Origin: Bryobacteraceae bacterium
Lineage (GTDB): Bacteria; Acidobacteriota; Terriglobia; Bryobacterales; Bryobacteraceae
NCBI GenBank assembly: GCA_025928545.1
Contig: JAICJH010000008.1
Span: 62,001-126,000 of the forward strand
Reading direction: 5' to 3'
DNA: 64,000 bases
Below, piece by piece: positions 7,255 through 57,719 of the stretch (the stretch's first letter is position 1; the number at the start of each line of letters is the position of its first letter). Made by a program: the position numbers and the translations under genes. Under the pieces are notes generated by a model. It saw only the letters and a list, made by a program, of their open reading frames with translations, was not told the origin of the DNA and made no database searches.

Positions 7255-7322
7255 TTGACTTCCTGATGCCGCATTGATAACATCCAATGCGTTAGTAACA
7301 CCTGTCATTGCGCATTATGCAA
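7255..7322 (+). promoter_or_regulatory. Promoter and tandem operator of receptor 2
   Basis: The -35 TTGACT (7255-7260) and -10 TAACAT (7278-7283) have a 17-bp spacer. The 15-bp palindrome TTGCGCATTATGCAA lies at 7308-7322, and a degenerate copy, ATGCGTTAGTAACAC, at 7287-7301 is displaced by exactly 21 bp. Both lie downstream of the -10, which suggests repression by blocking initiation or early elongation. About 150 nt of untranslated leader (7323-7473) follow, with no further structure recognised. Confidence 0.65.
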
Positions 7323-7473
7323 GACTAGGTTTGGGGGCTTCTGTTGGGGATTGTAGGTTCGCTGGCGTCTGTCCAACGCGCATAGCAATATCGTTTGACG
7401 CTTCGCCGATTGCCTGTCCGGATTCGGGTAACACGGCGCGTTCAGGCGGACACGTTATAGGGAGATCAAATTT

Positions 7474-10400
7474 ATGCACACACCGCGAAAAGTTGTCCTT
7501 TTTCTTCTGTTAGCCGCCCTTACGGCGATTCCGCTGTTGGCTCAGGGCGATCGAGGCGAGATCACGGGAACGGTCATGGACGCGAGCGGGGCGGTCATAC
7601 CCGGTGTCCAGATATTGGCCACGCAAAAGGCCACGAACTCCCAATTCAAAACCACGACTAGTTCAGCGGGTGCTTTCACGGTGACATCTTTGCCCGTCGG
7701 TGAGTATCTGTTGCGTGCGGAAAAAGCGGGGTTCAAATCGTCGGTCACCGATGGCGTAGTGGTTACGGCTAACGGAACAGCTCGTGTGGATGCCAAGCTG
7801 GAAATTGGCCAAACGCAGCAGACCATCGAGGTGAGCGCCACCACACAGTTGGTGCAGACCGAAAATGCCAGGGTGTCGACGTCGGTATCGAGCGCGCTGG
7901 TGGATGCACTACCGGTTCAGGTAGTCGGGGGCTCGCGAAGTCCATTCGACCTGGCGGCTACTACAGCGGAGGTCAACACCGCGGGCACATTCCGCATTGG
8001 CGGCGGCAACAACACTGTAGGGGTAACGCTCGATGGCTCATCGCTTGCCGGAGTGAAAATCGGCAACGACGCCGGGAGCGGCGGTGCGGTTGCAATGAAC
8101 AGCCCGTCCGTGGAAGCTCTCACTGAGTTTAACGTGGAATCCTCCGGGTTTAAGGCTGAGACGGGCCACGTTTCCGGTGGCACCCTCAGCTTCGTCTCGA
8201 AATCCGGCACGAACACGCTCCATGGGAGCGCCTTTGAATATCTGCGCAATCAGGCTTTCGATGCGCGAAATTTCTTCGCGGCCAAGAAGTCCGTCTACAA
8301 GCAAAGCAATTTCGGAGCGACAGTGGGCGGTCCGGTCTGGCTTCCGAAAATCTACAACGGCAAGAATAAGACGTTTTTCTTTTTCTCTTATGAAGGATTC
8401 CGCAACCGGGTCGGAGCGAGCGTCACTCCCTCCAGCGTGGCGCCCACAGAGTTCTACACCGGCGATTTGCACAACTGGGTCGACGCCAATAACAAGCCAT
8501 ACCAGATCTACGATCCAGGGACGCAACGCCTTTCCGGCACGACCTATGTCCGTGATCCTTTCGCCGGAAATATTATTCCGCCGAGCCGGATCGATCCTAT
8601 AGCCGCTGTCATCGCGAACTATGTCAAGGGTATTCTCGCACCGAACCTCCCGAATCTGGTGCCGGGAACGTCGGCATACGTTCGCAACAATTTCACATCG
8701 ACGGGCGTTCAGCTCAGCCCCAGTGATCGATGGAGTGCGAAGGTCGACCAGAATCTGGGTTCGAAGCATCACCTGTCCTACCTGATGAACCGTTACCGCG
8801 ATGGCGCTATTGCAGGGGCAAACGGCCCTCCCGGCCTGCCGGTACCGATCGGGGGCTTTAACACGGGTTTCAATGCTACTCAGGTTTATCGCGGCACGTG
8901 GGATTACACCATCACTCCAACGCTGGTCAGTCGATTCTACGGTGGGTTCAACTACTTCCGTGAAGACCACGGCTCAACGGCCATTACAGAAGACTCACCG
9001 CAGGCCGAGGGATTCAGCGGGCTGTTGCCTGCCGGTTACTGGAAGTCCAAAGGGATCTGCATCCCGAATTACCCGGTATGCGCCAACTTTCCCATCATTA
9101 ACCTTGGCGATTTCGCCGGCCTGGGCACTAACGGTCCGAACGGTTCCGACCGCCTCGTCTTTGAGTTGCATGAAGACATTACGAAAATTAAGGGTTCGCA
9201 CGTAATCAAGTGGGGCTACTTCTACGGAAACAGCCACTATGATGGCTTCGGATTGCAGAACGGATCCGGCAGCCTGGGGTTCAGTTTCCAGGGTACTTCG
9301 GTGCCGCAGGCAACGACGCAGGCGAGCGGCGGCGGCAGCGGTTTTGCATCTTTCCTGCTGGGCCAGGTGAATAACTACGCGCTGGATACGCCGCGTTACC
9401 TGACCGCTGTTTATCGCACTCATCAGGGGTACATCCAGGACGACTGGAAGGTATCAAAGAAGCTGACGCTGAACATCGGCTTCCGCTACAGCATGGATCA
9501 GGCGCCGATTTCGACCGACGATAAGATCAGCGACTTTTCTCCGACTACCCCGAATCCGGGCGCAGGCGGACTGTTGGGCGCCACCATATTTGCCGGGAGC
9601 GGAACGGGAAGGATCGGCAGACGCAACGTCATCGACAGCTTCTGGAAAGGGTATGAGCCGCGCTTCGGCTTCGCGTACGCGCCCAACAACAAGACCACAA
9701 TTCGTGGCGCGGCTACCCGCAGTTTCGGTCCTGTAGCCGGGATCGGGCAATCTTCGCACAATCTTGGTTTCGCTGTCCGCCTCACGGTTGGCAACGCCAG
9801 CAGCGGTCTGCTCCCATCCTGGATCCTGAAGAACGGCGCTCCGGCATGGCCGCCTCCACCGACGCTGGATCCTTCGGCAGGCCTTGGCACCAACCCGCCG
9901 GCTTACAACGGGAATCAGGCTACCCGGCCAGACAGCGAACTGAACTACTCGTTCAATATTCAGCGGCAGATTTCGAAGAGCTCGGCGATCGAGGTGGGCT
10001 GGGCCGCTACGCTCGCAAGCGATATCAGTTCCAACTTCCTTGCGCTGAACCAGATCCCCTACCGGTCTCTGCCGGCCTCTTTGAGTCCGTTCACGGCAAG
10101 CGGACGCGCGGCGCTGGGTTCGCTGGTGGGTTCCACCGCTGCGACTAACGCCGGGGTGACCGCACCACCATGGACTTGTGGCACGGGTTCATCGAGTTCC
10201 TGCGTCGCATTCAGCACTCTATATGGCAGCGGCGCAACAGTGCAGCAGGCACGTCGGCCGTTCCCGCAATACACGACGATTAATACTCTGGATGGAGGTG
10301 GCGATCGCATCGGCCATTCGACTTACCATTCGCTGACCGTCAAGTATGACAAGCGTACCGGCGGGGGGCTTACGATTCAGGCTTCCTATAAGTTCTCGAA

Positions 10401-11052
10401 GGAACTAACAGATACGGATTCGACCGGCGCGGCAGCCGGCGATATGTACAATCTGCGGCTGCTTAAATCCATCGCGTCATTTGACCAGACACACCAGGTC
10501 AAATTCGCGTGGGTGTACGAACTCCCCGTTGGCCGTCACAAGGCGTTTCTGAGCAACGGCGGCGTGGTTGCCGCGATAGTTGGCGGCTGGCGCATCTCCG
10601 CCATCCAGACTTATGCCAGCGGCTTGCCGACGAACCTGGCGTCGACGGTCAGCTTCCCGATCGGCGACTTTTCGAACCGTCCGACGATCAGCACTTATGA
10701 TGGCTGGGCAGCGACGTTGGACCACAAGTTCGATCCGAACGCGGACAACTATCTTCAGCCCCAGTCCTTCTTCCCGGCACAACCGATCAGTGCGTTTGGT
10801 AATTCCACCCGGTTCAACCCTAAGTTCCGGTTGGCTCCCACGATTTCGGAGAACCCTTCTTTGGCACGCATCTTCTCCTTTAAGGAGCGGGCGCGCCTGG
10901 AGGTTCGCGGCGAAGCGTTCAATGTGCTCAACCGCGTTTATTTTTCTCCGCTCAACGGTGGCCTGACGCTCGGGAATGCCAACTTCGGGCTGTGGCGCAA
11001 TCAGGCCAATTCGCCCCGCAACATCCAGTTAGTAGCCAAGTTGACCTGGTAA
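7474..11052 (+). CDS. TonB-dependent receptor, Oar-like (receptor 2)
   Basis: Encodes 1192 aa. Signal peptide with core VVLFLLLAALTAIPLLAQ, carboxypeptidase-regulatory-like domain at about 28-115 (GEITGTVMDASGAVIPGVQI), plug at about 120-260 and a beta-barrel ending in LVAKLTW. The plug lacks the usual LPLNGRN box and reads DALPVQVVGGSRSPFDLA instead, so it belongs to a different Oar subgroup from receptor 1. AGGGAG at 7459-7464 supports the ATG at 7474. The promoter and operator pair upstream place it in the proposed shared regulon. A 10-bp hairpin lies immediately after the stop, and the membrane TPR gene follows closely. Outer-membrane uptake is expected from the family; the ligand is unknown. 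Confidence 0.9.
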   Translation: MHTPRKVVLFLLLAALTAIPLLAQGDRGEITGTVMDASGAVIPGVQILATQKATNSQFKTTTSSAGAFTVTSLPVGEYLLRAEKAGFKSSVTDGVVVTANGTARVDAKLEIGQTQQTIEVSATTQLVQTENARVSTSVSSALVDALPVQVVGGSRSPFDLAATTAEVNTAGTFRIGGGNNTVGVTLDGSSLAGVKIGNDAGSGGAVAMNSPSVEALTEFNVESSGFKAETGHVSGGTLSFVSKSGTNTLHGSAFEYLRNQAFDARNFFAAKKSVYKQSNFGATVGGPVWLPKIYNGKNKTFFFFSYEGFRNRVGASVTPSSVAPTEFYTGDLHNWVDANNKPYQIYDPGTQRLSGTTYVRDPFAGNIIPPSRIDPIAAVIANYVKGILAPNLPNLVPGTSAYVRNNFTSTGVQLSPSDRWSAKVDQNLGSKHHLSYLMNRYRDGAIAGANGPPGLPVPIGGFNTGFNATQVYRGTWDYTITPTLVSRFYGGFNYFREDHGSTAITEDSPQAEGFSGLLPAGYWKSKGICIPNYPVCANFPIINLGDFAGLGTNGPNGSDRLVFELHEDITKIKGSHVIKWGYFYGNSHYDGFGLQNGSGSLGFSFQGTSVPQATTQASGGGSGFASFLLGQVNNYALDTPRYLTAVYRTHQGYIQDDWKVSKKLTLNIGFRYSMDQAPISTDDKISDFSPTTPNPGAGGLLGATIFAGSGTGRIGRRNVIDSFWKGYEPRFGFAYAPNNKTTIRGAATRSFGPVAGIGQSSHNLGFAVRLTVGNASSGLLPSWILKNGAPAWPPPPTLDPSAGLGTNPPAYNGNQATRPDSELNYSFNIQRQISKSSAIEVGWAATLASDISSNFLALNQIPYRSLPASLSPFTASGRAALGSLVGSTAATNAGVTAPPWTCGTGSSSSCVAFSTLYGSGATVQQARRPFPQYTTINTLDGGGDRIGHSTYHSLTVKYDKRTGGGLTIQASYKFSKELTDTDSTGAAAGDMYNLRLLKSIASFDQTHQVKFAWVYELPVGRHKAFLSNGGVVAAIVGGWRISAIQTYASGLPTNLASTVSFPIGDFSNRPTISTYDGWAATLDHKFDPNADNYLQPQSFFPAQPISAFGNSTRFNPKFRLAPTISENPSLARIFSFKERARLEVRGEAFNVLNRVYFSPLNGGLTLGNANFGLWRNQANSPRNIQLVAKLTW

Positions 11053-11056
11053 TGCC

Positions 11057-13454: not shown

Positions 13455-16400
13455 TCAGAACGATATTCTTCCGACAACCAGCATGTTCCTCGCGGAGCCT
13501 GCGGCGATGTTATTGATGTTCATAAATCCGAACCCGCCGGTTAGCGCGCCATTTGAGTTGTGCGTAGCCGCAGTGATTGGATTTCCCACCCCGATACCGG
13601 GAAATACGAGCCGGTTAAACGGGTTGTACATCTCAAAGCGAAGCTCAAAGAATCTGCCCGCGTGCGCATCTGAGAGGACAAATCTTCGGCCCAATCCGAT
13701 ATCTTCCTGAGGCGTTCGTCGCTGACGGAAATCGGTGTAACGCGGCGAGCCGCAGCCGAATGTGGCTGTGGGTCCGCATTCTGTCCAGGCAGCCGGATTG
13801 AGCAGCAGTTGTCGGGTTGGATCTATCTTGCCATTGGGATCGGTGAGGTAAAGCGGCTGACCCGAAACCCGCGCCATGTATTGAGTCGAAGCCCCTGCAA
13901 GATACGTGCCGAGATTGTTGTTCGATCCGGGAGCGGTGAGTAAAGCACCGCTTTGGTAACGCAGTACTCCGCTGACCTGCCAATCGCTGAAGACTGTCTT
14001 CGTAATCCTGTTCGAGCCCATAAAGCCAGAGGTCAGGTGGGGCGTCTGGTAGATAAGGTTCAGCGAGAGGGCCTGCGGAATGCTGTTCACATCGAGAACT
14101 TTCTGGGTGGCCAGATTCGTCCAGTCATTGAATGTGCTGATGCGGGTAATCGACTTTGCCCACGTGTACGTGCCGAGCGCGGTAATGTTGTATTTTAGCT
14201 TGGCATTCAGTTTCATCTGCAGCGAGTCATACCAGGAATCGCCCGATGGAGTAGTGGGGGTAATGTTTCCGTACTGAGGAAACGGCCGGAGCGTGTTAGT
14301 AACGGAAGTCGTCGTCGGATAATTCGAGAACGGCAGAGAATATCCGGCTGTCTTAGCGGTCCCCGACCCGATTTGCGAATTTAAAAGGGTAAGATTCGAC
14401 GCGTTGGCGAGACTGAGCCCGTGCGCGGCCAGAATCGCCGGAGTGACCGAGTTGATCGGCGTCATCGTACCCTGAAGCCAGACTCCGCGGTTACCCACAT
14501 AGGCAGCTTCCAGTGTCATGCCGCGCATGATCTCCCGCTGCAACGCGATATTGAACTGCGCGACGCGCGGAGGCCGGCCAAGTGACGGGGCGTAGAAGGT
14601 GGGGGTGTTGAGATTACTAAGGCCCGTGATTGGGTTCACCGTGGGGAGCGCGCCTGCCTGGTGCAGTGTTGAAGCGAACAGAGCGGTATTGGCGGGCAAT
14701 CCGCCCTGGAGGCCATTAGGAAGCGCGGATTGACCTGCTTTAGACGAGAAGGTGATGGTGTCGTATCCGGTTCCCGCGCTGGGACTCTGAGGAGCGCTGG
14801 CGGTAAAAGTATCGGGCGCGCCGAAGAAAAAGCCCCATCCGGCCCGGATCACCGTCCTGGAATCCAACTGGTAGGCGGCGCCGAACCGCGGTGCGATGGC
14901 GAATTTGTACAGGTCGAGAAAGTTCTTGCAATTACATGTGCCCGCGCCGAAGCCCTGGTAAAGCACTGCTCCGGGAAGATTACCGGCGCTCGGATTGGGA
15001 GTGGTTGGGGAGAACGAACTGACTCGATTACGGTCTTCGAGTGGCGGATTCTGCAAATCGTACCGCATACCTAAATCCAGCGTTAGTTTTCTGGTTACTT
15101 TCCAGTTGTCCTGCGCATACACCGCCGTCGCCCTGTCGTGCCAGTTGACACTGGTGCAGGGCGCGAGACTGGATGTGTTCGGCAGGCCGAGCAGAAAACT
15201 GGCGTAGTTCAGGCCGGGACTCCCGTTCGTGGTCGCCAGGGTTACACCTCCCGCGCCGAAAGGTTGGCCAGTCTGGGCTGCGGAAAATGCATACGTTCCC
15301 CATCCACCCTGGCATTGATTGAAGCCTTCCATGCGCGTTTGCGCGCTGCCTCCGAACTTGAACGAATGCGACCCCTTCACCCATGTAAGCGCCGCCGACG
15401 AAGTGAACTCGCCGGTGTTTACGTACTGATTGAAGTTCGCCCCAATGTTCTGGGACATTCCACCGATAGGAGCCCCACTGGACGAGTTATTCCCCAGGCC
15501 GCTGATCTGCGGGAAACCGCTCGTGATAGCGCCAGTCAGGCCAAGTTTGCTTTGGTCAAAGCTCAGCACTTCCGGGAACGGGAGTTTCGATACCTGCGCA
15601 TTCACGTAACCCACTCCAAGATGCAGAAGCATTGACGGGCGAAGCGTATCATCCACGTTCAGACGAGCGGTGCTGGACTGGCTTGTATTGAAGCCTGCCG
15701 TCGTGATGTTCACCGGCAGAGCGTCAGTGCTGGTCTGACCCGACCCTCCGACATACGAGTAGAGCGCCGAGAGTTTCAAATTAGAAGAAACATTGTGATC
15801 AATCTTGATGGACGGAATGTTCTGAGGTCTGGGCGTGGATCCGTACAGTTGAAAATTATTCGACTGGAGCCCGTTCCCCGGCTTCGGCAGAAAGCCCTGG
15901 ATCTTCAGGGCGACCGGATCGAGCCGGCTTGAGGGTAAGGCGTTACCCGAAAACGGAAGCCGCGTAAAGCCATCGGCGGCAAGAGCCTTCGGGTCGAAGA
16001 TTTGCCCCGCCAGCACGGCATTCCCCAGTCCGTCTTTGCACGGAACGCCTCCGCAATTCACCTGGGCGCCAAGGTCGGCCGCAAAATTGCCGATGACATC
16101 GTTTGCATTCGGCACAGTAGTGAAGTTTCCGGAATTGGGGGCCGGGAGAATCGAGCGAAATCCTTCGTACGAAAAAAAGAAAAATGTCTTGTCGTGTCCG
16201 TTATAGACGTGCGGAATACGAACAGGACCACCGAACGTACCGCCGAAGTTGTTTTGCCGGCTCGGATTGCGAACGCCCGTGTATGGCTGGTGGGCATTCA
16301 GGTCCTCGTTCGTAAGGCGGTAGAAAGCGCCCCCGTGATATTGGTTCGTGCCGGATTTCGCCGTGAAGTTGTAGATGCCCCCCTGAGCCTGTCCGAACTC

Positions 16401-17111
16401 GGCGGCGAAGTTCCCGGTCTGAAGACTGACTTCTTCCAGGGCCTCCACCGACGGCTGCTGATAAAAGAAGAATCCCGCGGCATATAGATTGGTGCTGTCC
16501 TGACCGTCGACCAGGGTCTTGAACGATCCATTTGGCGATCCGTTAATCGAAGCGCCGCCGCCCTGGAGTCCATTCGAGCCGAAGTAGGTGGTGCCGCCAC
16601 TCATGCCCGGTAAAATCTGCGCTATGGAAAGCGGATTACGGACCGCCTGGTTTCCATAAAAACCGTTCGACCATTGGATGGGAAGCTCGACAAAAAGTTC
16701 ATTGGAAACGGTGGTGGTAATGTCGGCGTCTTCAGTCCTGATCGCTACCGCTTCCGCCTGAACGGTGATGCTCTCCGAGCTTGAGCCGATCTCCAATTTT
16801 ACATCAACTCGGATTGTCTGCGCGACTTCAATTTTGTTGGCGACGGACGAGTACCGCTTAAATCCCGGCGCCTCCACGGCGACATCCCAGGCTCCAACCG
16901 CCAACTGCGGCAATGTGAAATTACCGGTGGGAGTGGTAACCGTTTCCACGACGTTATGAGTGTCGGCATTCTGCGCGCTTACTTTGGCGCCCGCCACGAC
17001 GGCACCCGACTGGTCCGTCACCGTCCCGGTAATCGTTCCGCGATCACCTTGAGCAAACGCGCCACCGATTACAAGGGCGCACAGGCACGATATTCTTACG
17101 AGGTATCTCAT
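13455..17111 (-). CDS. TonB-dependent receptor, Oar-like (receptor 3)
   Basis: Encodes 1218 aa from the ATG at 17111, chosen because AGGGGAAG sits 5 nt upstream and the protein then opens with a clear signal peptide (MRYLVRISCLCALVIGGAFA); the frame extends 33 codons further with no such support. The carboxypeptidase-regulatory-like domain lies at about 22-105 (GTITGTVTDQSGAVVAGAKV), the plug at about 115-260 and the barrel ends in LVVGRISF. The plug lacks LPLNGRN and has ELPIQWSNGFYGNQA, so it resembles receptor 2 in this respect. It is transcribed divergently from receptor 4 across 510 bp holding two separate promoters, each with the shared operator. Confidence 0.9.
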   Translation of the reverse strand: MRYLVRISCLCALVIGGAFAQGDRGTITGTVTDQSGAVVAGAKVSAQNADTHNVVETVTTPTGNFTLPQLAVGAWDVAVEAPGFKRYSSVANKIEVAQTIRVDVKLEIGSSSESITVQAEAVAIRTEDADITTTVSNELFVELPIQWSNGFYGNQAVRNPLSIAQILPGMSGGTTYFGSNGLQGGGASINGSPNGSFKTLVDGQDSTNLYAAGFFFYQQPSVEALEEVSLQTGNFAAEFGQAQGGIYNFTAKSGTNQYHGGAFYRLTNEDLNAHQPYTGVRNPSRQNNFGGTFGGPVRIPHVYNGHDKTFFFFSYEGFRSILPAPNSGNFTTVPNANDVIGNFAADLGAQVNCGGVPCKDGLGNAVLAGQIFDPKALAADGFTRLPFSGNALPSSRLDPVALKIQGFLPKPGNGLQSNNFQLYGSTPRPQNIPSIKIDHNVSSNLKLSALYSYVGGSGQTSTDALPVNITTAGFNTSQSSTARLNVDDTLRPSMLLHLGVGYVNAQVSKLPFPEVLSFDQSKLGLTGAITSGFPQISGLGNNSSSGAPIGGMSQNIGANFNQYVNTGEFTSSAALTWVKGSHSFKFGGSAQTRMEGFNQCQGGWGTYAFSAAQTGQPFGAGGVTLATTNGSPGLNYASFLLGLPNTSSLAPCTSVNWHDRATAVYAQDNWKVTRKLTLDLGMRYDLQNPPLEDRNRVSSFSPTTPNPSAGNLPGAVLYQGFGAGTCNCKNFLDLYKFAIAPRFGAAYQLDSRTVIRAGWGFFFGAPDTFTASAPQSPSAGTGYDTITFSSKAGQSALPNGLQGGLPANTALFASTLHQAGALPTVNPITGLSNLNTPTFYAPSLGRPPRVAQFNIALQREIMRGMTLEAAYVGNRGVWLQGTMTPINSVTPAILAAHGLSLANASNLTLLNSQIGSGTAKTAGYSLPFSNYPTTTSVTNTLRPFPQYGNITPTTPSGDSWYDSLQMKLNAKLKYNITALGTYTWAKSITRISTFNDWTNLATQKVLDVNSIPQALSLNLIYQTPHLTSGFMGSNRITKTVFSDWQVSGVLRYQSGALLTAPGSNNNLGTYLAGASTQYMARVSGQPLYLTDPNGKIDPTRQLLLNPAAWTECGPTATFGCGSPRYTDFRQRRTPQEDIGLGRRFVLSDAHAGRFFELRFEMYNPFNRLVFPGIGVGNPITAATHNSNGALTGGFGFMNINNIAAGSARNMLVVGRISF

Positions 17112-17151: not shown

Positions 17152-17210
17152 TTGCGTATAACGCCGTATGGATTGGCGATGATGCTATCAAACGTACCTA
17201 AGGGTGTCAA
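17152..17210 (-). promoter_or_regulatory. Promoter and operator of receptor 3
   Basis: On the minus strand, -35 TTGACA (17210-17205) and -10 TAGCAT (17187-17182) have a 17-bp spacer. The operator at 17166-17152 reads CGGCGTTATACGCAA on that strand, 12 of 15 matches to TTGCGYAATRCGCAA. A degenerate site displaced by 21 bp (17173-17187) overlaps the -10. The downstream position fits repression. Confidence 0.6.
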
Positions 17211-17383: not shown

Positions 17384-17454
17384 TTGACTTCAATAGAAGT
17401 GATCCATAGAATGCTTCTGTGGGCAATGCGCGACAGGTCGTGCGTATTAAGCAA
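17384..17454 (+). promoter_or_regulatory. Promoter and tandem operator of receptor 4
   Basis: -35 TTGACT (17384-17389) and -10 TAGAAT (17407-17412) are 17 bp apart. Operators GTGGGCAATGCGCGA (17419-17433, 12/15) and GTGCGTATTAAGCAA (17440-17454, 12/15) are exactly 21 bp apart and follow the -10. The region 17211-17383 between the two divergent promoters is AT-richer, with no gene seen; 17455-17608 is leader. Confidence 0.65.
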
Positions 17455-36189: not shown

Positions 36190-36225
36190 TTGCTTAAGAC
36201 GCAACGCTGGTTGCGTTATACTTAG
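36190..36225. promoter_or_regulatory. Tandem operator and -10 in the FG-GAP/PQQ divergent region
   Basis: TTGCTTAAGACGCAA (36190-36204, 13/15) and TTGCGTTATACTTAG (36211-36225, 11/15) are exactly 21 bp apart. The plus-strand -10 TATACT (36217-36222) lies inside the second site, and a minus-strand TATAAC overlaps the same bases, so one operator pair could control both directions. The right arm of the first site and left arm of the second also form ACGCAAC-GCTG-GTTGCGT. Confidence 0.65.
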
Positions 36226-36288
36226 CGTCGCATGGTATCAGCCAATCTGCGTGAAGTCAAGCATTACCGTCGTCGAAAAGGACACTGG

Positions 36289-38308: not shown

Positions 38309-38344
38309 ATGCGTAATGCGCAATGGGAGTTGCGCTACACTGTG
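38309..38344 (+). promoter_or_regulatory. Tandem operator before the first SDR gene
   Basis: ATGCGTAATGCGCAA (38309-38323) matches the consensus at 14 of 15 positions. A half-site TTGCGC begins a second unit at 38330, exactly 21 bp on. A -10-like TACACT (38336-38341) lies in the second unit; no good -35 is visible, perhaps because the promoter needs an activator or is weak. Confidence 0.6.
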
Positions 38345-45621: not shown

Positions 45622-45667
45622 AACACCCTGCCTTTTCTGTGGCGTCCCACATTTCTGTGTTTGGTCA

Positions 45668-48927: not shown

Positions 48928-48988
48928 TTGCACACAAACCAACGTAAGTTGCGTGATGCGCAATATTTCTCGCCGCGCGTGATATACT
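48928..48988 (+). promoter_or_regulatory. Tandem operator and -10 of PQQ2
   Basis: TTGCGTGATGCGCAA (48949-48963) matches 14 of 15 consensus positions. A partial unit TTGCACACAAACCAA (48928-48942, 10/15) lies exactly 21 bp upstream. The -10 TATACT is at 48983-48988, so here the operator covers the -35 region; no separate -35 hexamer can be read. The remaining leader to 49098 holds no alternative convincing start. Confidence 0.65.
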
Positions 48989-49098: not shown

Positions 49099-51390
49099 AT
49101 GAAAACAGTCCATCTACGTCCTTTTCCTGTTCTGACGATCCTCCTTATTGTCACCGGAATGGTGTTTGCCCAGCAGGCCGGAACCTCCTGGAAGGATCAT
49201 CTCGGGGGCCCGGACAGTTCACACTACTCCCCGTTGAAGCAGATTAATACCGGCAACGTTAACAAGCTGGATGTCGCATGGTCGTATGACACGGGCGACG
49301 CTACAGCCTACACCTTCAGTCCTCTCGTGATCGATAACATCGCATACGTGGCGGCGAAGCAGGGATCGCTGGTGGCGCTCGATGCCACGACCGGCAGGGA
49401 ACTGTGGGTTCATTCGTTCGGCCCTGCCGCAGGTGGTCGCGGGGGAATTTCCGCGCAGCGCGGCGCAAATTATTGGGAGAGCAGGGACCGCAAAGATAGA
49501 CGCATTTTCGTGTCCGAAGGCGGTTCCCTCCAGGCTATCGATGCATTGACAGGCAATCTGGTCGATTCGTTTGCGGACCACGGCAAGCTCGATCTGAAAA
49601 CTGGTCTGGACCGCGCAACAAGACCGCTCGCATCGAGGAACCCGGGACGAATCTTCGAGAACACTATTATTCTCGGAAGCGCCACGGGCGAAGGCTATCT
49701 GGCGCCTCCGGGCGACATTCGTGCCTTTGACACAGTCTCCGGCAAATTGCTCTGGGTCTTTCATACAATTCCGCGTCCGGGAGAGCCCGGTTATGACTCA
49801 TGGCCGAAGGACGCATACAAGTACATGGGTGGCGTTGATGTCTGGGGGGAGATTACGGTTGATGAGAAACACGGCATCGCATATTTTCCTGTAGCGTCGG
49901 CGAAATATGAGCTCTACGGTGGAGACAGGAAGGGTGACAATCTCTACGCCGATTGCCTGCTGGCGCTCGATGCCCGCACCGGCAAGCACCTTTGGCACTT
50001 CCAGACAGTGCACCACGATGTTTGGGATTACGACCCCAACTCCGCGCCCCAGCTGGTAACGGTGAAACATGACGGGAAGAATGTCGATGCGGTAGCGCTC
50101 GCCTCGAAAAACGGTTTCCTCTATGTGTTCGACCGCATAACCGGAAAGCCCCTGTGGCCGATCGTGGAAAAGCCCGTCCCGCAGAGCGACGTTCCTGGCG
50201 AAGTGACGGCAAAGACGCAGCCGTTTCCAACCGTAGTCCCCGCGTTTGCAAGGCAGGGAATGACGGTCAAAGATATGTACGACGGCTTCATGTCGCCTGA
50301 CGAAAAGACATGGTGGAAAGACCGCCTTGCCAGCGCGCGAACCGGCTTCTTTACTCCGCCGTCGCTGAAGGCAGACACAATCAACCTGCCGAGCGTCAAT
50401 GGCGGAGCCCTGTTCTTCAGCACTGGCGCCGACCCGACCAACGGAACCGTATTCGTGGAATCGAAGGATATGCCCTCGATTGTGAAGCTGGTTCCGGCGG
50501 GAGAGTCCACGGCAGCCAACAACGGTGGCCTGATTCCGGCCCGCGCGGGCCGCGGCGGGCGAGGCGGCTCGGGTCGCGGAGGCGGTACCGCCGCGGGAGC
50601 CACTGCCGGAGTACCGGAGAGACTGGGCCGCGCCGTGTATGAACAGACCTGCATCGCGTGCCACGGAGCTGACCTGAAGGGAGACAGAGGACCCGAACTC
50701 TTAACTGCCGTGAAGCGCCTCGGTCCGCAGGCAATTCGCAATACCGTTGCGAATGGCAAGGCGACGATGCCGCCGCTTACCGGAATACCGGCCGCGTCCA
50801 TGGACAACCTGATTGCATTTCTGACGCAGCCCGATCTCGCTCCCCCTGGCTCTGCTCTCACTGCCGCACCGGCTGCGGGAGGCAGAGGACCGGGCGAGCC
50901 TCCTTATCCCGACGATGTCGAAGGGCCTCCCTCACGTTACAAGACGGGTTACGGAAACGAACAGTATGTGATCTCCCCGCCGTGGACGACATTGACCGCC
51001 TACGATCTGAACACCGGGAAAATCAAGTGGCAGACTCCTTATGGCGATCTGCCGCAGGCCGGGCCGAGCGACAAGCTGCGCGGCAATGTCTATCCGAAAA
51101 GCGGGTTCGTCATTACCGCGGGCGGGCTCGTGCTCTTCGCTGGTAACGACTCTAAGATTTACGCACTGAATGAAGAAACCGGAAAGGTGATCTTCACGAA
51201 GGAAATCCCCAACGGGTCTCTGGGCGTACCCGCGGTTTATGAGGCGAATGGCAGGGAGTTCATTCTCTTTGCCGTGTCCGGTGGCAACCCCTATCCGGCC
51301 GGCGCTTATATCCCGCCCGGCGGCACCACGCCTCCGGCAATTTCGAAGAGTTGGATTGCGTTCGCGCTTCCTTCTCCGAGCACCAGATAG
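49099..51390 (+). CDS. Exported PQQ quinoprotein dehydrogenase with internal cytochrome c (PQQ2)
   Basis: Encodes 763 aa from the ATG at 49099, preceded by GGGAG and opening with a signal peptide (core FPVLTILLIVTGMVFA); upstream in-frame codons give no signal. The first propeller blades (WKDHLGGPDSSHYSPLKQI, GSLVALDATTGRELWVH) resemble glucose-dehydrogenase-type quinoproteins. A cytochrome c domain with CIACH at residues 518-522 is inserted late, and the final blades follow it (YPKSGFVITAGGLVLFAGND). Gly/Arg-rich stretches flank the haem domain (about 50535-50600 and 50870-50905). The haem position differs from PQQ1, so the two are not simple duplicates. Periplasmic alcohol or sugar oxidation is expected. 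Confidence 0.88.
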   Translation: MKTVHLRPFPVLTILLIVTGMVFAQQAGTSWKDHLGGPDSSHYSPLKQINTGNVNKLDVAWSYDTGDATAYTFSPLVIDNIAYVAAKQGSLVALDATTGRELWVHSFGPAAGGRGGISAQRGANYWESRDRKDRRIFVSEGGSLQAIDALTGNLVDSFADHGKLDLKTGLDRATRPLASRNPGRIFENTIILGSATGEGYLAPPGDIRAFDTVSGKLLWVFHTIPRPGEPGYDSWPKDAYKYMGGVDVWGEITVDEKHGIAYFPVASAKYELYGGDRKGDNLYADCLLALDARTGKHLWHFQTVHHDVWDYDPNSAPQLVTVKHDGKNVDAVALASKNGFLYVFDRITGKPLWPIVEKPVPQSDVPGEVTAKTQPFPTVVPAFARQGMTVKDMYDGFMSPDEKTWWKDRLASARTGFFTPPSLKADTINLPSVNGGALFFSTGADPTNGTVFVESKDMPSIVKLVPAGESTAANNGGLIPARAGRGGRGGSGRGGGTAAGATAGVPERLGRAVYEQTCIACHGADLKGDRGPELLTAVKRLGPQAIRNTVANGKATMPPLTGIPAASMDNLIAFLTQPDLAPPGSALTAAPAAGGRGPGEPPYPDDVEGPPSRYKTGYGNEQYVISPPWTTLTAYDLNTGKIKWQTPYGDLPQAGPSDKLRGNVYPKSGFVITAGGLVLFAGNDSKIYALNEETGKVIFTKEIPNGSLGVPAVYEANGREFILFAVSGGNPYPAGAYIPPGGTTPPAISKSWIAFALPSPSTR

Positions 51391-51565: not shown

Positions 51566-51632
51566 TTGACTTCGCTGTCCGCTGTTGATAATATCCCGTC
51601 ATGTTAAGCAACGCGCGTTGCTTATTGTGCAA
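51566..51632 (+). promoter_or_regulatory. Promoter and composite operator of receptor 6
   Basis: -35 TTGACT (51566-51571) and -10 TAATAT (51589-51594) have a 17-bp spacer. Downstream lies GCAA-N6-TTGC-N7-GCAA (51608-51632): TTGCTTATTGTGCAA is one 15-bp unit (51618-51632), and the preceding GCAA is the right arm of a unit 21 bp upstream. The perfect 18-bp palindrome AAGCAACGCGCGTTGCTT (51606-51623) spans the junction. The stretch 51391-51565 shows no gene. Confidence 0.68.
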
Positions 51633-51682: not shown

Positions 51683-54600
51683 ATGAACAGAAAGCGAACA
51701 GGTACGATGCTCGCGCTCTTGTTGGCGAGCTTGACAATTCTTATTGCGCCGCTTTACGGGCAGAACTTTTACGGTTCCGTTGTCGGAACGATAACCGATC
51801 CTTCCGGAGCGAATATGGCTGCCGTGAAGGTGTCGATCTCGAATCCGGCGACGGGCGAGCGCCACACTGTGGAAACCGACGCGGACGGCGGATATCGCTT
51901 TCCGAATCTGCTGCCGGGTACCTATAAGGTCGAGATTTCACAGACCGGTTTCAAACAGTATCTTCGGGATAACATCGCGGTCCAGGTGGAATCGACGATA
52001 CGTCTCGATGTGCCAATGCAGGTGGGCGATCTCTCGCAGCAGATCGAGGTTTCGGCAGCCGCTCCGCTTCTACAGACGGAGAATGCTTCCTTGAGCCAGG
52101 TGATCAACGCGCGTTCCGTTGAAGAACTGCCGCTCAACGGCCGAAATATTCTGAACCTGGTCAACCTTTCCCCTGGTGTTGTGCCCCAGGGCTCTACGGA
52201 CGGCAATCTCACAGGCAAGAACGTATTTGCGGCCGGCAACTATCAGATCGGCGGTGGTACGGCCAATCAGAGCGTGACGCTTTTCGACGGTGTCCCGGTG
52301 AATATCACGTACGGTAATGTGACGGCGCTCGTGCCCGTCCCGGACGCGGTCGCCGAATTCCGGGTCCAGACCAGCAACAACAGCGCCGAATATGGCCGGT
52401 ACACGGGCGGTGTGATCAATGTGGCGTCGAAAGGCGGCAGCAACGACTTTCACGGCGGAGTTTATGAATTCCTCCGCAACAAGCAACTGAACGCAACAAA
52501 TTTCTTTGCAAACAAAACGGGCGCGGGTAAGGCGCCGTTTGTTCAGAACCAGTTTGGTGGGAGTCTGGGCGGCCGCATCATCAAAGACAAGCTCTTCTTT
52601 TTTGGCAATTATGAAGGCTTCCGGGCCCGCCAGGGCAATCTCTTCAGCTTGTCGGTGCCGACCACAGCAGAGCGGACCGGGGATTTTAGCGGATACCTCA
52701 ACGGCAGCGGAGCGCAGATCCCGATCTACGACCCCGCCACCCAGTGCGGCGCTTATGGAAACTCCGCTTGCGGAACGGTGCAGCGCACGGCTTTTGCGGG
52801 AAACCTCATTCCGCCAAGCCGCATTGCTTTGGTTTCAAAGAACCTGATAGCGTTTCCGATTCACGCCCTGCCCACGGATAGCGGCCAGAACTTTACCCAT
52901 CTCCAGAATTTCAATCGAAATGTCGCCACTGGCGGTGATAACGACCAGCTCAACCTGCGCGGCGACTATCAAATGAGCCAGAAACAACGTTTGCTGGCGC
53001 GGTTTACACGGTGGCAATCCACCAATCTTCCGGCTGATGTCTACGGAAACGGGTTCCGCAATGGAGATCCGTTTTCGCCCGAGCATTTCGTGACCACCCA
53101 GGCTGTACTGGCGGATACCTACATACTGCGGCCAAACATGGTTCTCGATTTGCGAGCCGGATTCACACGGTGGTTCTATGTGCGGACTCCCGGTACGCTT
53201 GGCCAGAATGGCACGGCGGTCGGCCTGCCCTCGTATTTCGGACAGATCGCCACCCTCAACGGTCTCAGCGGATCGACGACAATCCCCACCATCAGTATTT
53301 CTTCGCCCACGACGAATGCCATTACGACAGGTTATCTGCTGGGCGCCGATAATACCTACACACTGTCGCCCACCATGACGTGGATCAAGGGGAAACACAC
53401 CGTGAAGTTCGGCGGCGAGTTTCACAAGTATGCGCTCGGCTATTTCCAGAACAACGCTCCGGGCGGCACCTTTGGTTTCGACAATCTCTTTACCGCGGCA
53501 TCGGGGGCGGGCGGCGCGAGCGGCAGCGGTTATGCTTCGTTCCTGCTCGGACTGTCGAACAACAACAGCCTTGTCCAGACATCATGGCAGTCCTACACCA
53601 TGATGGATTACGAAGGATTCTTCATAACGGATACGTTTCAGGCCACGAAGAAGCTTTCCATAACGGCGGGACTGCGTTACGAAATACCCGGTGTCTACAA
53701 AGAGCGCTTCAATCGGATCGCTACCTTTAATCGCTTTGAGGCGAATCCCGCGCTGAACGGAACTTTGATCAACGGCAAGCCAATCCTCGGCGCCTATGAT
53801 GCTGTCAACACGCCGAACCACCCGGACGCGGGCCAGACGAAAGAGCACTTCGGTCTGTTCGCCCCTCGCGTCGGCATCGCTTACAGGCTGACCGACTCCA
53901 CCGTAATCCGAACCGGCGGAGGCATATTCTTCATTCCTGGCAACGTGCAGTTCACTCAGGGTCCGCAGGCGAATCCGCTCAGCTTTTACAACAACTCGCA
54001 GGCTGCCAGTATCGACAGCTACGTCACATATAATTCCACTTTTTCGAATCCGTTCCCCACCGGCTTGTTCGGGCCTCCCGGCAGGACCGGCGACTTCCAG
54101 TCCCTCTTCCTCGGCGCGAGCCTGGGCGGCAAAGCCTTTCAGGCCGACGAAAAATCGGGATACACGGAACAGTGGAACTTTACAATTCAGCACCAGTTCC
54201 AGCGCAATATTTCGCTCGAGGCCAGCTACGCGGGCCTTCGCGGCATACATCTGCCGGCAAACCTGCAATACGATCAGCTCGACCCACAGTATTTGTCGCA
54301 GGGTTCAGCTCTGAAGACGCAGGTCCCCAATCCGTTCTATGGCAAGGTCGCAACCGGTACGCTGTCGGCTAAAACCGTTCAGGCGGGGCAACTGTTGTTG
54401 CCGTTCCCCGAATACACATCGGTGTCCAACAGTTCCGCCTATCTCGGGGACAGCACTTATCATGCGCTCCAGGTCAAGCTGGAAAAGCGATTCACCACAG
54501 GCGGTACCTTGCTGGGGGCTTACACTTTCTCGAAGGTTCTCGCGAACGTAGAGACTCTGACAACCTGGCTCGACTCGGGCACAGGAGTGGCAGGCTACCA

Positions 54601-55210
54601 GAACAATTACGATCTGAGCGGCGAGAAGGCGCTTTCGAGCTTCGACTCCCGCCAACGTCTGACGGTCAGCTACGTGTATGATCTGCCCGTCGGCAATGGC
54701 AGGCAGTTTCTCGGTACAACCAATGCTTTCGTCAGCCGCGTCATCTCGGGCTGGGGAATTAACGGTGTGACTACCTTTCAGAAAGGTTTTCCGCTCGGTT
54801 TGACCGCGACTCCCAACAACACCGGCTTCAATACAGGGCTCCGTCCGAATGTAGTTAATGGTTGTCAGAAGACGGTGGGCGGTTCGGCGCAATCGAAGTA
54901 CACGGGCTGGTTCAACACGGCGTGTTTTACGGCCCCGGCTACCTATACTTTCGGCAGCGAATCGCGCACCGATCCCGAGTTACGAGGCCCGGGTATTGCG
55001 AATTACGACTTCTCTCTGTTCAAAAGGACAGCCATCACGGAGAAAGTCAATATGGAGTTCCGGGCAGAGGCTTTTAATCTCTTTAATCGGGTCCAGTTCG
55101 GAAATCCAAATACCGGGCAGACGACGTCCGCGAATAACATATTCGGACAGATCACATCGCAGCAGAACACTCCACGCCTGCTGCAGATGGCTCTGCGCCT
55201 GCGTTTTTAG
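51683..55210 (+). CDS. TonB-dependent receptor, Oar-like (receptor 6)
   Basis: Encodes 1175 aa. GAGGGGA lies about 9 nt before the ATG. Signal peptide (TMLALLLASLTILIAPLYGQ), carboxypeptidase-regulatory-like domain at about 30-115 (GSVVGTITDPSGANMAAVKV), plug at about 120-240 with the classical ELPLNGRNILNLVNLSPGV and a barrel ending in LLQMALRLRF. With receptor 1 it shares the LPLNGRN box, but unlike receptor 1 it has the shared operator. The leader is short (about 85 nt). A textbook hairpin terminator follows. It sits between PQQ2 and a multihaem cytochrome lipoprotein, both redox proteins of the envelope. Confidence 0.92.
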   Translation: MNRKRTGTMLALLLASLTILIAPLYGQNFYGSVVGTITDPSGANMAAVKVSISNPATGERHTVETDADGGYRFPNLLPGTYKVEISQTGFKQYLRDNIAVQVESTIRLDVPMQVGDLSQQIEVSAAAPLLQTENASLSQVINARSVEELPLNGRNILNLVNLSPGVVPQGSTDGNLTGKNVFAAGNYQIGGGTANQSVTLFDGVPVNITYGNVTALVPVPDAVAEFRVQTSNNSAEYGRYTGGVINVASKGGSNDFHGGVYEFLRNKQLNATNFFANKTGAGKAPFVQNQFGGSLGGRIIKDKLFFFGNYEGFRARQGNLFSLSVPTTAERTGDFSGYLNGSGAQIPIYDPATQCGAYGNSACGTVQRTAFAGNLIPPSRIALVSKNLIAFPIHALPTDSGQNFTHLQNFNRNVATGGDNDQLNLRGDYQMSQKQRLLARFTRWQSTNLPADVYGNGFRNGDPFSPEHFVTTQAVLADTYILRPNMVLDLRAGFTRWFYVRTPGTLGQNGTAVGLPSYFGQIATLNGLSGSTTIPTISISSPTTNAITTGYLLGADNTYTLSPTMTWIKGKHTVKFGGEFHKYALGYFQNNAPGGTFGFDNLFTAASGAGGASGSGYASFLLGLSNNNSLVQTSWQSYTMMDYEGFFITDTFQATKKLSITAGLRYEIPGVYKERFNRIATFNRFEANPALNGTLINGKPILGAYDAVNTPNHPDAGQTKEHFGLFAPRVGIAYRLTDSTVIRTGGGIFFIPGNVQFTQGPQANPLSFYNNSQAASIDSYVTYNSTFSNPFPTGLFGPPGRTGDFQSLFLGASLGGKAFQADEKSGYTEQWNFTIQHQFQRNISLEASYAGLRGIHLPANLQYDQLDPQYLSQGSALKTQVPNPFYGKVATGTLSAKTVQAGQLLLPFPEYTSVSNSSAYLGDSTYHALQVKLEKRFTTGGTLLGAYTFSKVLANVETLTTWLDSGTGVAGYQNNYDLSGEKALSSFDSRQRLTVSYVYDLPVGNGRQFLGTTNAFVSRVISGWGINGVTTFQKGFPLGLTATPNNTGFNTGLRPNVVNGCQKTVGGSAQSKYTGWFNTACFTAPATYTFGSESRTDPELRGPGIANYDFSLFKRTAITEKVNMEFRAEAFNLFNRVQFGNPNTGQTTSANNIFGQITSQQNTPRLLQMALRLRF

Positions 55211-55240
55211 GCGCCTTCCGATTGTTGGAATATGATGCGG

Positions 55241-55280
55241 GGCCGGGACGGCGAACATCATTGCCGTCCCGGCCGTTTTG
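55241..55280 (+). terminator. Strong intrinsic terminator after receptor 6
   Basis: GGCCGGGACGGC (55241-55252), a 10-nt loop and GCCGTCCCGGCC (55263-55274) form a perfect 12-bp stem, followed by G-TTTT-G. It stands 30 nt past the receptor stop and before the start chosen for the cytochrome gene, which therefore may have its own promoter or depend on read-through. Confidence 0.75.
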
Positions 55281-55303
55281 TGGCAAAATTTATCAGACCC
55301 GAT

Positions 55304-57079
55304 ATGAGCCGCCTGGCCAGACTGGTTGATCCGGCACTGCGGGTGCGTGCGGTCTTATGGCGTCCCGGGCAGTTCGTTCTGGTATTGGCCCTCGCTCTTC
55401 TCGCAGGCTGTTCCCGCCCAGGCACGGTGAAACAGACGCCCTCTGCCGCGGAGGCCCACTACACAGACACGGCGCAATGCGCCGTTTGCCATGCGGAAAT
55501 CGCTGACGCGTTTGCGACAACCGGGATGGGAAAGTCCTTTTCCCGGGCGCAGCCAATAGAAGGCAAGCTGTATCACGCGGCTTCGGATCGATACTACGAA
55601 ATCGCCGGTGGCAAGATGATCCGCTTTCAACTCGGACCAGCGGGGCATCAGATGAACCGGATCGAAAGCACAATCGACTTCGCAATCGGCTCCGGCATTC
55701 ACGCGAAGACTTTTGTTCACAGGAAAGCCGACGGCTCGCTCACGGAAATGCCGGTGAGCTGGTATAGCGAGCACGGCGGCACATTCGCCATGAGCCCTGG
55801 CTATGATCGCCCGGACCACGACGATTTCCGGCGGCCAATCCCTGAGGATTGTCTGTTCTGCCATAATGCCTATCCCCGGCCGGACAATCCGTATCCGACC
55901 GGAATCGATTGCCAGCGGTGTCATGGCCCGGGCAGTGATCACAATCAGATGGTCAATCCCGCGAAGCTGAGCCGGGCACGACAGATGGATGTGTGTGAGC
56001 AGTGTCATCTCGAACCGTCCAGTTCGCCACCCGCTACAGTTGTCCGGCGCCCCGAGCGGGCTCCATTCTCTTACAGGCCTGGCGAAAAACTGACGGACTA
56101 TGCCGACTATTTTGAGGCGGGTATCGGCGACCGCTTTGAAGTGGCTCATCAGGGCTACCGGTTGCGAAAGTCGGCCTGCTTCGCTAAGAGCCAGATGACC
56201 TGTATCACGTGCCATGACCCCCATCGGACACAGACGGTGTCTCACTACATCGATGTGTGCAGGAGTTGCCACGCGAACTCTCATCGCGCGAATGAAAATT
56301 GCCTGACCTGCCACATGTGGAAACGCGCCACGGACGATGTCCCTCACGTGACGATGACGGACCACTTCATCCAGCGCAGGAAGCCGGCGTCGTTCACGTC
56401 CGGAACGGTTACCATGTCCACGCCATATTTCCCCGGCGAGAACCCCCTTCCCCGCTATTACCAGCGCGGGATGGACGCTTCGAAAGCCGGCGATTATTCG
56501 TCTGCCATCCGTCTGTTCGGCGAGGCTATTCGAACCGGCGATAATGCCGCAGCCGCAAGGCGCGAAATGGCCGCCTCAATGATGTTGGGCGGAAACAACG
56601 CCGGAGCAATCGCAGAACTGGAAAGGCTGCCTGACGATCCCATTGCCCTTACCAACCTCGGTAACGCCTACATGAAGATCGGCCGGGTGGAGGATGCGAA
56701 GCGGGTGCTTTCAAAAGCTTCCCAGGAGCCGGACGCGAACAACTTGCTGGGCCTTGCCTTTCTACAGTTGGGCGACACTGCCGCAGCCGAGACCGCGTTT
56801 CGGGATGCGCTCAGTCTCAAGCCCGATCTGGCCGAAGCAAATAACAATCTGGGTACACTGCTTGCCGGGCGTCGTCAATTTACCGACGCTGCCTGGTACT
56901 TCGGCAAAGCAGTGGCGTCAAGCCCCGCCAGCGCGGAGTTCCACCATAAGCTCGGGCTCGCACTTGTGATGACTGGCGATCCTCGCGGGGCAAGGCGTGA
57001 GTTTGAAACGGCGCTGCGGCTCGCGCCGGATTCGGCGGAGATTCGCGCCGATCTGGAAGATCTGCGTAAGCTGCGATGA
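55304..57079 (+). CDS. Seven-haem cytochrome c lipoprotein with C-terminal TPRs
   Basis: Encodes 591 aa from the ATG at 55304. The frame opens 24 codons earlier, but that part runs through the terminator stem. A lipoprotein signal ends LLAGC with the lipid-bearing C36. Seven CxxCH motifs follow: CAVCH (59-63), CLFCH, CQRCH, CEQCH, CITCH, CRSCH and CLTCH. Residues about 400-591 hold tetratricopeptide units (ITNLGNAYMKIGRVEDAKRV-like, FRDALSLKPDLAEANNNLG). Such cytochrome-TPR fusions occur in Acidobacteria and relatives of cytochrome c554; they probably relay electrons in the periplasm while the TPRs dock a partner. PQQ2 nearby is a possible donor. That pairing is inference. Confidence 0.85.
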   Translation: MSRLARLVDPALRVRAVLWRPGQFVLVLALALLAGCSRPGTVKQTPSAAEAHYTDTAQCAVCHAEIADAFATTGMGKSFSRAQPIEGKLYHAASDRYYEIAGGKMIRFQLGPAGHQMNRIESTIDFAIGSGIHAKTFVHRKADGSLTEMPVSWYSEHGGTFAMSPGYDRPDHDDFRRPIPEDCLFCHNAYPRPDNPYPTGIDCQRCHGPGSDHNQMVNPAKLSRARQMDVCEQCHLEPSSSPPATVVRRPERAPFSYRPGEKLTDYADYFEAGIGDRFEVAHQGYRLRKSACFAKSQMTCITCHDPHRTQTVSHYIDVCRSCHANSHRANENCLTCHMWKRATDDVPHVTMTDHFIQRRKPASFTSGTVTMSTPYFPGENPLPRYYQRGMDASKAGDYSSAIRLFGEAIRTGDNAAAARREMAASMMLGGNNAGAIAELERLPDDPIALTNLGNAYMKIGRVEDAKRVLSKASQEPDANNLLGLAFLQLGDTAAAETAFRDALSLKPDLAEANNNLGTLLAGRRQFTDAAWYFGKAVASSPASAEFHHKLGLALVMTGDPRGARREFETALRLAPDSAEIRADLEDLRKLR

Positions 57080-57118: not shown

Positions 57119-57187
57119 TTGACTTCCCTCAGTCCGCCCTGATAGCATCCAATAGATTTTTCGCAACGCGATTTGCATATTAAGCAA
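57119..57187 (+). promoter_or_regulatory. Promoter and composite operator of the YdcZ-type gene
   Basis: -35 TTGACT (57119-57124) and -10 TAGCAT (57143-57148) have an 18-bp spacer. TTGCATATTAAGCAA (57173-57187) is a 15-bp unit; the preceding GCAA (57163-57166) gives the same GCAA-N6-TTGC-N7-GCAA arrangement as at receptor 6, again 21 bp in phase. Confidence 0.65.
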
Positions 57188-57205: not shown

Positions 57206-57655
57206 ATGAAACTGCCCCTATACGCATTGACTGTTTTCCTTGGAGTTGTACTCGCGGTTCATCTCGCGATGAATGGCAAAGTCGGGGCGGTCCTCGGCAA
57301 TGCGCGCGTAGGCAACGCCCTTTTCTGGTGCATCGGAGCTTTTGGCGCCGTTGTGATCGGGTTGAGCGGATGGCAATCCGGCGCACTCGGTCCGCTGTCG
57401 CAGGTTCATCCCTTCCTGCTCACCGCTGGCCTCATGGGGGCGAGCCTCGTGTTCGCAATTGCGTGGCTGATTCCGCAGGCTGGCGCGGGCCCTGTGATGA
57501 TCACTCTGATCGCAGGTCAGATCCTCGGCGGCATGGTGATGTCCCATTTCGGCCTGCTCGGCTCGCCGGTGCAGCCTGTTTCTCTGACCAATCTATTGGG
57601 CGCGCTCGTTATGATGGCGGGCGTCGCGATGGCGACGTACATCCCGGCACAGTAA
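57206..57655 (+). CDS. DMT-family membrane protein (DUF606/YdcZ type)
   Basis: Encodes 149 aa with five hydrophobic helices, the size and pattern of YdcZ/DUF606 half-transporters (TVFLGVVLAVHLAMNGKVGA at the N-terminus, ITLIAGQILGGMVMSHFGLL in the middle). These small drug/metabolite-superfamily proteins act in the inner membrane, often as dimers, with mostly unknown substrates. GGATGAA precedes the ATG. It has its own promoter and operator but lies only 131 bp before the dehydrogenase gene, so read-through is possible. Co-regulation with receptors hints at solute export or import in the same pathway. Confidence 0.85.
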   Translation: MKLPLYALTVFLGVVLAVHLAMNGKVGAVLGNARVGNALFWCIGAFGAVVIGLSGWQSGALGPLSQVHPFLLTAGLMGASLVFAIAWLIPQAGAGPVMITLIAGQILGGMVMSHFGLLGSPVQPVSLTNLLGALVMMAGVAMATYIPAQ

Positions 57656-57680
57656 GCGCTGGGTGAATTCCGCGCGAGCG

Positions 57681-57719
57681 GTATAATCGTAGACGCAAGC
57701 AGTTTTGCGTAATACGCAC
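57681..57719 (+). promoter_or_regulatory. Operator and -10 of the dehydrogenase-transketolase operon
   Basis: A consensus -10 TATAAT lies at 57682-57687 with no clear -35. TTGCGTAATACGCAC (57705-57719) matches 14 of 15 positions and is the best single statement of the motif. A perfect right arm ACGCAA (57693-57698) ends a second unit exactly 21 bp upstream, which overlaps the -10. Leader to 57785 otherwise empty. Confidence 0.68.

Follow-up and report, generated by a model that had tools for sequence, protein, structure and literature searches.

A predicted IclR-family sugar-catabolic regulon with a three-box operator in Acidobacteriota

Background

The operators of IclR-family regulators have been surveyed by Suvorova and Gelfand (2021, PMC8222616). 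Its group 1 has the operator consensus GKTYCRYW3-4RYGRAMC. Three-box operators are predicted in 32 of 181 groups, tandem sites 18-22 nt apart in 94 of 181, and the commonest site position is -22. PcaU and PobR of Acinetobacter have a palindrome plus an external direct half-site, and in PcaU this third box is required. TphR of Comamonas sp. E6, an IclR regulator for terephthalate, has the operator TTTTTGCGCATAGCGCAAAAA (Table 1 of the survey). Acidobacteria are absent from the survey's taxonomic table and main text, its supplements being outside this check. Here we consider a 15-bp palindrome, TTGCGYAATRCGCAA, with the symmetric form TTGCRYAWTRYGCAA, that recurs between genes in a 64,000-nucleotide stretch of a Bryobacteraceae bacterium (GCA_025928545.1, contig JAICJH010000008.1). 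The whole stretch is called the window. It is C7:62001-126000 in a genome of 6.70 Mb and 171 contigs.

The palindrome is of the IclR consensus type in its core. CRYWWWRYG of group 1 is matched letter for letter by C-RY-AWT-RY-G, and one outer letter per half differs (TTY/RAA there, TTG/CAA here; PMC8222616). The initial annotation of the window recognised no published regulator with this consensus, but a near relative is in print. The TphR operator contains TTGCGCATAGCGCAA, which is one base off TTGCRYAWTRYGCAA. This likeness rests on the operator and not on the protein; TphR controls aromatic degradation, and Table 1 of the survey gives it no third box. PcaU and PobR share the plan of a palindrome with an external half-site. 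Their box letters are different, however, and they are activators of aromatic-acid pathways, while the regulon here is of a sugar type by its gene content. As far as we have seen, the system would be of an ordinary IclR type, and what is new is the phylum, the assignment of regulator to targets and the box sequence. Our literature searches, which most subscription papers were out of reach of, found no paper on an acidobacterial IclR regulon.

We argue that one IclR factor, encoded at C7:61212-62000, reads a three-box operator built on this palindrome and controls both itself and a regulon for sugar uptake and oxidation. This is a prediction from sequence, and we put its probability at about 0.88. 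Direct computation gives the sites and the three-box form, and it shows that the sites lie between genes, are conserved and occur together with the IclR gene.

Sites in the window and the genome

Genes were called with a custom script based on open reading frames and codon usage, not a standard annotator, which makes starts and distances approximate. The tallies for the window, the relatives and the comparison of genomes count a site no more than 20-30 bp from a called start as intergenic. A position weight matrix (PWM) was trained on 13 sites of this genome, 11 of them from the window. Its scores within this genome are circular, and the relatives are the held-out test.

On both strands and with up to 3 mismatches, the window holds 28 matches to TTGCGYAATRCGCAA where 6.8 are expected. 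This is about four times the count in shuffled sequence, and none of 100 shuffles reached 28. At a PWM score of at least 16 there are 12 sites, all of them intergenic, in a window that is 14% intergenic by the gene calls (binomial p 6e-11). Since 11 of the 13 training sites come from the window, this p bears on location only. The whole genome has 30 forward and 29 reverse matches with no more than 2 mismatches, against 10 and 13 for the reversed control, and many of the palindromic ones are concentrated at C7:56910-119719. There are 51 distinct places at this threshold. The surroundings were read for 35 of them, and 24 are intergenic while 11 are inside genes; the other 16 all have 2 mismatches. 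Among the matches listed, 19 places have the symmetric form TTGCRYAWTRYGCAA with no more than 1 mismatch, against 4 for the control. All 19 were inspected, and 18 are intergenic, the exception being C103:3561. Ten of the 11 genic places are absent from this stricter list.

Each site of the initial annotation is found where it was placed, with 12-14 of 15 matches in the better orientation, and the ten intergenic regions that it marked are borne out. It had also put sites before TonB-type receptors 2-6. This stands for receptors 2, 4, 5 and 6; the site at 17152 before receptor 3 is weak and doubtful. Receptor 1 (3693-7043) has a site-free upstream region.

The likely regulator gene

The initial annotation saw no plausible regulator gene in the window. 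That is literally so among the genes identified, but the likely one occupies the 789 bases that end just before position 1. The gene at C7:61212-62000 encodes a protein of 262 aa with the domain make-up of the IclR family, HTH_IclR at the N-terminus (PF09339, 2.2e-12) and IclR_C at the C-terminus (PF01614, 8.3e-39). It is the only PF01614 match detected in its genome. In the PDB its sequence is best matched by 8eju, a Pca-regulon regulator (E 4e-29). As is a trait of the family, the gene adjoins the genes that it would control and carries a site of its own: TTGCACAATATGCAA, an exact match to the symmetric pattern, ends 17 bp before its start codon. Orthologues with at least 58% identity are present in 11 of 121 genomes, and 14 further genomes match only at 30-35%. 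For 8 of the 11 orthologues, the IclR match is preceded by a site at a distance of 17-81 bp.

Co-occurrence of motif and regulator

Ten of the 11 genomes that carry the orthologue have the exact palindrome, as do 6 of the 110 without it (reversed control 3/121). The exact three-box pattern described below is present in 9/11 carriers and 5/110 others (reversed control 4/121). Fisher p is 7e-10 and 9e-9 respectively with the kinship of the genomes ignored, and it must be noted that 9 of the 11 carriers belong to one genus. Of the six palindrome-bearing non-carriers, three lack any IclR (G004, G067 and G119) and three have IclRs other than this one (G031, G045 and G109). The palindrome is inside genes in G004 and G119. 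In 40 chosen stretches from 16 genomes, which is a sample and not every site, 20 of 23 sites are intergenic in carriers versus 8 of 19 in non-carriers. Several of the carrier sites precede orthologues of window targets (FG-GAP, IolE-like, SDR1 and 33034-type). Chance and codon effects were considered by way of G004, an apparent counterexample without an IclR that has nine near matches among those listed; eight of the nine are inside genes, however, and it was set aside.

Odd-length palindromes also suit the GntR/FadR family, and a regulator of that family elsewhere in the genome was the initial guess. This genome has 10 genes with the FCD domain, all 11 carriers have at least one, and G003 has one some 7 kb away from a site (C73). 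The distribution does not follow the motif, however. FCD-type genes are also present in 8 of 10 non-carriers among the 21 genomes compared, G004 included, and contig C7 has none of this genome's 10. Moreover, both the three boxes and the spacing of 21 bp have been described for IclR. We consider a GntR/FadR reader very improbable. The IclR is preferred: its gene lies next to the cluster, its own promoter region has a site, and gene and motif occur together.

Conservation in relatives

A scan of named genome contigs gave 51 loci: 36 at 48-76% identity (L096-L131), 14 actinobacterial ones at 30-35% and one partial locus (L145). Some are near copies, e.g. L119 and L122. Sites with a PWM score of at least 15 are present in 32 of the 35 loci L096-L130; there are none in L131 (Verrucomicrobiota) and none in the 14 actinobacterial loci. 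At a score of at least 17, the 35 loci, which were not used in training, have 76 intergenic sites and no genic ones. Over the same loci, 300 permuted palindromic matrices have means of 0.23 intergenic and 0.37 genic sites, with maxima of 22 and 4. Loci of other IclRs have no site at this score, either in the 14 actinobacterial loci (217 kb) or in 15 other acidobacterial loci (51 kb). The palindrome also emerges from a motif-free count of inverted repeats upstream of 37 IclR genes, where TTGC-N7-GCAA and the overlapping TGCA-N5-TGCA are joint first with 12 loci each.

In the IclR tree all 32 site-bearing rows fall in one clade of 38 rows with support of 100/98. The clade has six site-less rows (L070-L072, L105, L106 and L131), and the site label needs 5 changes. 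L145, L125 and L100 are not in this tree, and long branches outside the clade were flagged. The carriers include the isolates Edaphobacter modestus DSM 18101, Terriglobus albidus DSM 26559 and Paracidobacterium acidisoli 4G-K13.

Sites were counted within 350 bp upstream of genes at a score of at least 15 in 37 loci (L096-L131 and L145). They precede 17/24 lactonase, 15/18 SDR2, 11/17 transketolase-like and 11/14 IolE-like genes, all three of a second IolE-like kind and 9/15 genes for the epimerase-like w1141. They precede 8/20 PQQ2-like, 3/8 FG-GAP and 3/22 SDR3-like genes, and none of the 13 cupin and 10 aldehyde dehydrogenase relatives. Many genes of these last five kinds are distant or second in a gene run. 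The initial annotation had named beforehand two things to look for, a bias towards intergenic positions and sites upstream of orthologues. The first is seen in the window, the genome and the relatives, and the second is seen here.

Could the palindrome be an artefact of composition or a repeat, such as a mobile palindromic repeat? Ten of the 19 listed near-perfect places do fall within 63 kb of one contig. Against this, conservation covers the boxes and a few neighbouring letters and not the flanks, the sites recur before orthologous genes in different acidobacterial families, and the reversed-pattern and permuted-matrix controls are low. We regard an artefact as extremely improbable. The palindrome is very probably a real gene-control site common to many soil Acidobacteria.

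Three observations on the wider family stand apart. L128 (JANXWZ010000047.1) is titled as a Rhodanobacteraceae metagenome-assembled genome and has four sites, and its IclR adjoins that of Granulicella sp. dw_53 in the tree. The contig is probably misbinned acidobacterial DNA, with transfer less likely. In L131 the IclR match at 8901 is closely preceded by a weak degenerate tandem at 8847-8881, 20 bp apart with scores of 7.9 and 12.1, and this type of operator may predate the Acidobacteriota. Finally, there is a paralogous IclR clade, L070-L073 (with L088-L091 around them), at 49-53% identity, in which L073 has internal stop codons. In the three tested, the 400 bp before the regulator hold no site (best score 12.1). 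In L089 and L091 a variant, TTGCGYANNAYGCAT, is repeated upstream of genes.

The predicted three-box operator

The full operator is larger than the palindrome and reads GCAA-N6-TTGC-N7-GCAA. A second, weaker palindrome lies exactly 21 bp away in 20 of 114 non-redundant intergenic sites. When 110 sites from this genome and the relatives are oriented to the nearest gene, z is 9.4 at -21 and 2.6 at +21 over offsets of 15-85 bp, so the effect is largely one-sided. It stems mainly from one extra half-site. This third box, with 3 or more of its 4 letters, is found in 13 of the 20 sites of this genome; among the relatives, it accompanies 39 of 51 one-gene sites and 21 of 39 divergent ones. At other offsets the medians for these three sets are 1, 2 and 2, and the maxima 4, 9 and 10. 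The mirror box on the gene side is found in 5, 7 and 12 sites, and the extra box is thus usually on the side away from the gene. A three-box or tandem arrangement about two DNA turns apart is what a subset of the IclR family has, and here the distance is 21 bp.

The initial annotation had described the sites as close to readable promoter elements. Our -10/-35 scan of the 110 sites does not bear this out as a fixed geometry downstream of the operator. Scores are raised at offsets -4, 0, 3 and 5, where there is overlap with conserved letters of the operator.

Repressor or activator

We infer the binding, oligomeric state, sign and inducer of the system as follows. An IclR dimer would most likely sit on the palindrome, and the outer box, at a distance of 21 bp or two helical turns, would be contacted by a second dimer or subunit. 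The factor would control its own gene and probably also the lactonase gene behind it, which would be read from the site-bearing IclR promoter. Its other targets would be the TonB-type receptors, the PQQ/cytochrome dehydrogenases, the FG-GAP/3-keto-disaccharide hydrolases, the SDRs, the MFS transporter and YdcZ, and lastly the run of semialdehyde dehydrogenase, transketolase-like and cupin genes. IclR would mainly repress, and an intermediate of the pathway would release it, for example a sugar lactone or a sugar acid, which is a guess from the enzymes. In 50 of the 110 sites the centre is less than 60 bp from the called start, and this favours repression, the IclR gene itself included.

The same IclR could instead be an activator like PcaU and PobR, which when inducer-bound would sit upstream and recruit RNA polymerase, with operator polarity setting the direction. 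The upstream bias of the third box in the one-gene sites of the relatives fits this, as does the best PDB match to a Pca-regulon regulator. PcaU, PobR and HmgR have an added direct half-site, which PcaU requires for binding (PMC8222616). The many sites less than 60 bp from a start are nevertheless close for a classical upstream activator, and so is the operator 17 bp from the start of the IclR gene. We consider activation unlikely, though it deserves to be taken seriously. The -10 positions have no fixed relation to the operator, so the promoter scan favours neither repression nor activation.

Several results weigh against an IclR repressor that reads these sites and controls itself. A peak at -10 or -35 downstream of the operator is missing from the 110 sites, and the third box resembles that of PcaU and PobR, which are activators. 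Only 11 of 36 called IclR-like genes in the 37 loci have a site within 350 bp upstream; in most Acidobacteriaceae loci the site stands before an IolE-like gene that runs into IclR, and the sites of G115 likewise stand before the gene leading into IclR. The distance from site to IclR gene is 484 bp in G048. G013 has the orthologue, yet it has no exact palindrome and no site near its IclR gene. The best score is 10.2 in L106 and 14.7 in L125, a contig of 3.4 kb. In four of the six palindrome-bearing non-carriers (G031, G045, G067 and G109) the exact palindrome is intergenic. These sites would have to be due to chance or another regulator; otherwise an IclR reader leaves them unexplained.

Content of the predicted regulon

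The initial annotation read the marked genes as one coherent set for carbohydrate uptake and oxidation, and the gene content agrees. Four of the six TonB-type receptors in the window (OMP_b-brl_4 with CarboxypepD_reg) have a site, or five if the weak one at 17152 is counted. The set also has an FG-GAP/3-keto-disaccharide hydrolase, PQQ1, PQQ2-cytochrome c, three SDRs, YdcZ, an aldehyde dehydrogenase of the methylmalonate-semialdehyde dehydrogenase (MMSDH) type, a transketolase-like protein and a cupin. In NCBIfam, the models passed are CoA-acylating methylmalonate-semialdehyde dehydrogenase for the aldehyde dehydrogenase and a glucose 1-dehydrogenase subfamily for SDR3. The best model for the MFS transporter is a D-galactonate transporter, below cut-off, and a GH43 gene lies downstream of it. 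No NCBIfam model is above cut-off for the lactonase, w1141, IolE-like and transketolase-like proteins. In PDB searches the lactonase has no match, the transketolase-like protein matches generic transketolases, and w1141 and the IolE-like protein have weak matches.

Table 1. Predicted operators and the lactonase gene, in window coordinates
Feature	Position	Strand	Remarks
Operator before TonB-type receptor 2 (7474-11052)	7308..7322	+	PWM 22.8, exact match to TTGCRYAWTRYGCAA
Weak, doubtful site before receptor 3 (13455-17021, -)	17152..17166	-	PWM 7.6; CCAA at third-box position (read by eye)
Tandem operator before receptor 4 (17622-21779)	17419..17454	+	weak 17419-17433, strong 17440-17454, 21 bp apart
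Operator between FG-GAP/3-keto-disaccharide hydrolase gene (34168-36147, -) and PQQ1 (36232-38280, +)	36190..36204	-	PWM 19.3; third box GCAA in - strand reading
Operator before SDR1-SDR2 (38434-39216, 39233-40012)	38309..38323	+	PWM 20.5
Two operators before SDR3 (40174-41010)	40054-40068, 40105-40119	+	PWM 18.4, 19.9
Two overlapping palindromes between receptor 5 (42052-45621, -) and MFS transporter gene (46004-47236, +)	45661-45675, 45668-45682		PWM 16.8, 19.7
Operator before PQQ2-cytochrome c (49099-51390)	48949..48963	+	PWM 19.3
Operator before receptor 6 (51683-55210)	51618..51632	+	PWM 21.4; full three-box match from 51608
Operator before YdcZ-type transporter (57206-57655)	57173..57187	+	PWM 22.9; full three-box match from 57163
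Operator before run of semialdehyde dehydrogenase (57786-59309), transketolase-like (59290-61428) and cupin (61425-61811) genes	57705..57719	+	PWM 21.6
SMP-30/gluconolactonase-like gene directly behind IclR gene	83..1138	+	

The two palindromes at 45661-45682 overlap by 8 bases with their centres 7 bp apart. They lie between divergent genes and differ from the 21-bp arrangement found elsewhere. At 59290-61811 the transketolase-like protein has 712 aa and is followed by the small cupin, and this pair is kept in 13 of the 17 loci of relatives that have the transketolase-like gene. TPR proteins with doubled CXXCH haem motifs are encoded beside a receptor in the window (55232-57079), in L109 (951-3218) and in L108 (1008-3173), and the L109 and L108 genes carry sites of their own. 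They are possible partners in electron transfer or uptake.

Elsewhere in the genome, sites lie near genes for a GH10 protein, three further receptors, two esterases, a further PQQ protein, a 3-keto-disaccharide hydrolase and a DUF1592-type protein. The sites of the C67 receptor and its divergent esterase are weaker (15.9 and 14.0). Chance may account for the sites before genes of the shikimate dehydrogenase type (C8) and the GDP-mannose dehydratase type (C74). GH43 and GH10, in this one genome alone, suggest xylan as a possible substrate.

A bolder proposal can be made from this set. Throughout the Acidobacteriota, a single IclR factor acting by way of a polar three-box operator may couple uptake through TonB receptors and extracytoplasmic PQQ/3-keto-glycoside oxidation to an uncharacterised lactonase/IolE-like/transketolase-like/cupin pathway. 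The enzyme set would then be a new catabolic route, and the polarity of the operator would encode the direction of regulation. We offer this tentatively and would not bet on it.

Significance

Transcriptional regulation in the Acidobacteriota, which are common soil bacteria, is in our view poorly described. This work assigns a regulator together with its operator and targets, and the cultured carriers make the assignment directly testable. The operator marks a possibly undescribed sugar pathway. The best reading of the sequence evidence is that an autoregulated IclR sugar-catabolic regulon is present in several acidobacterial families.

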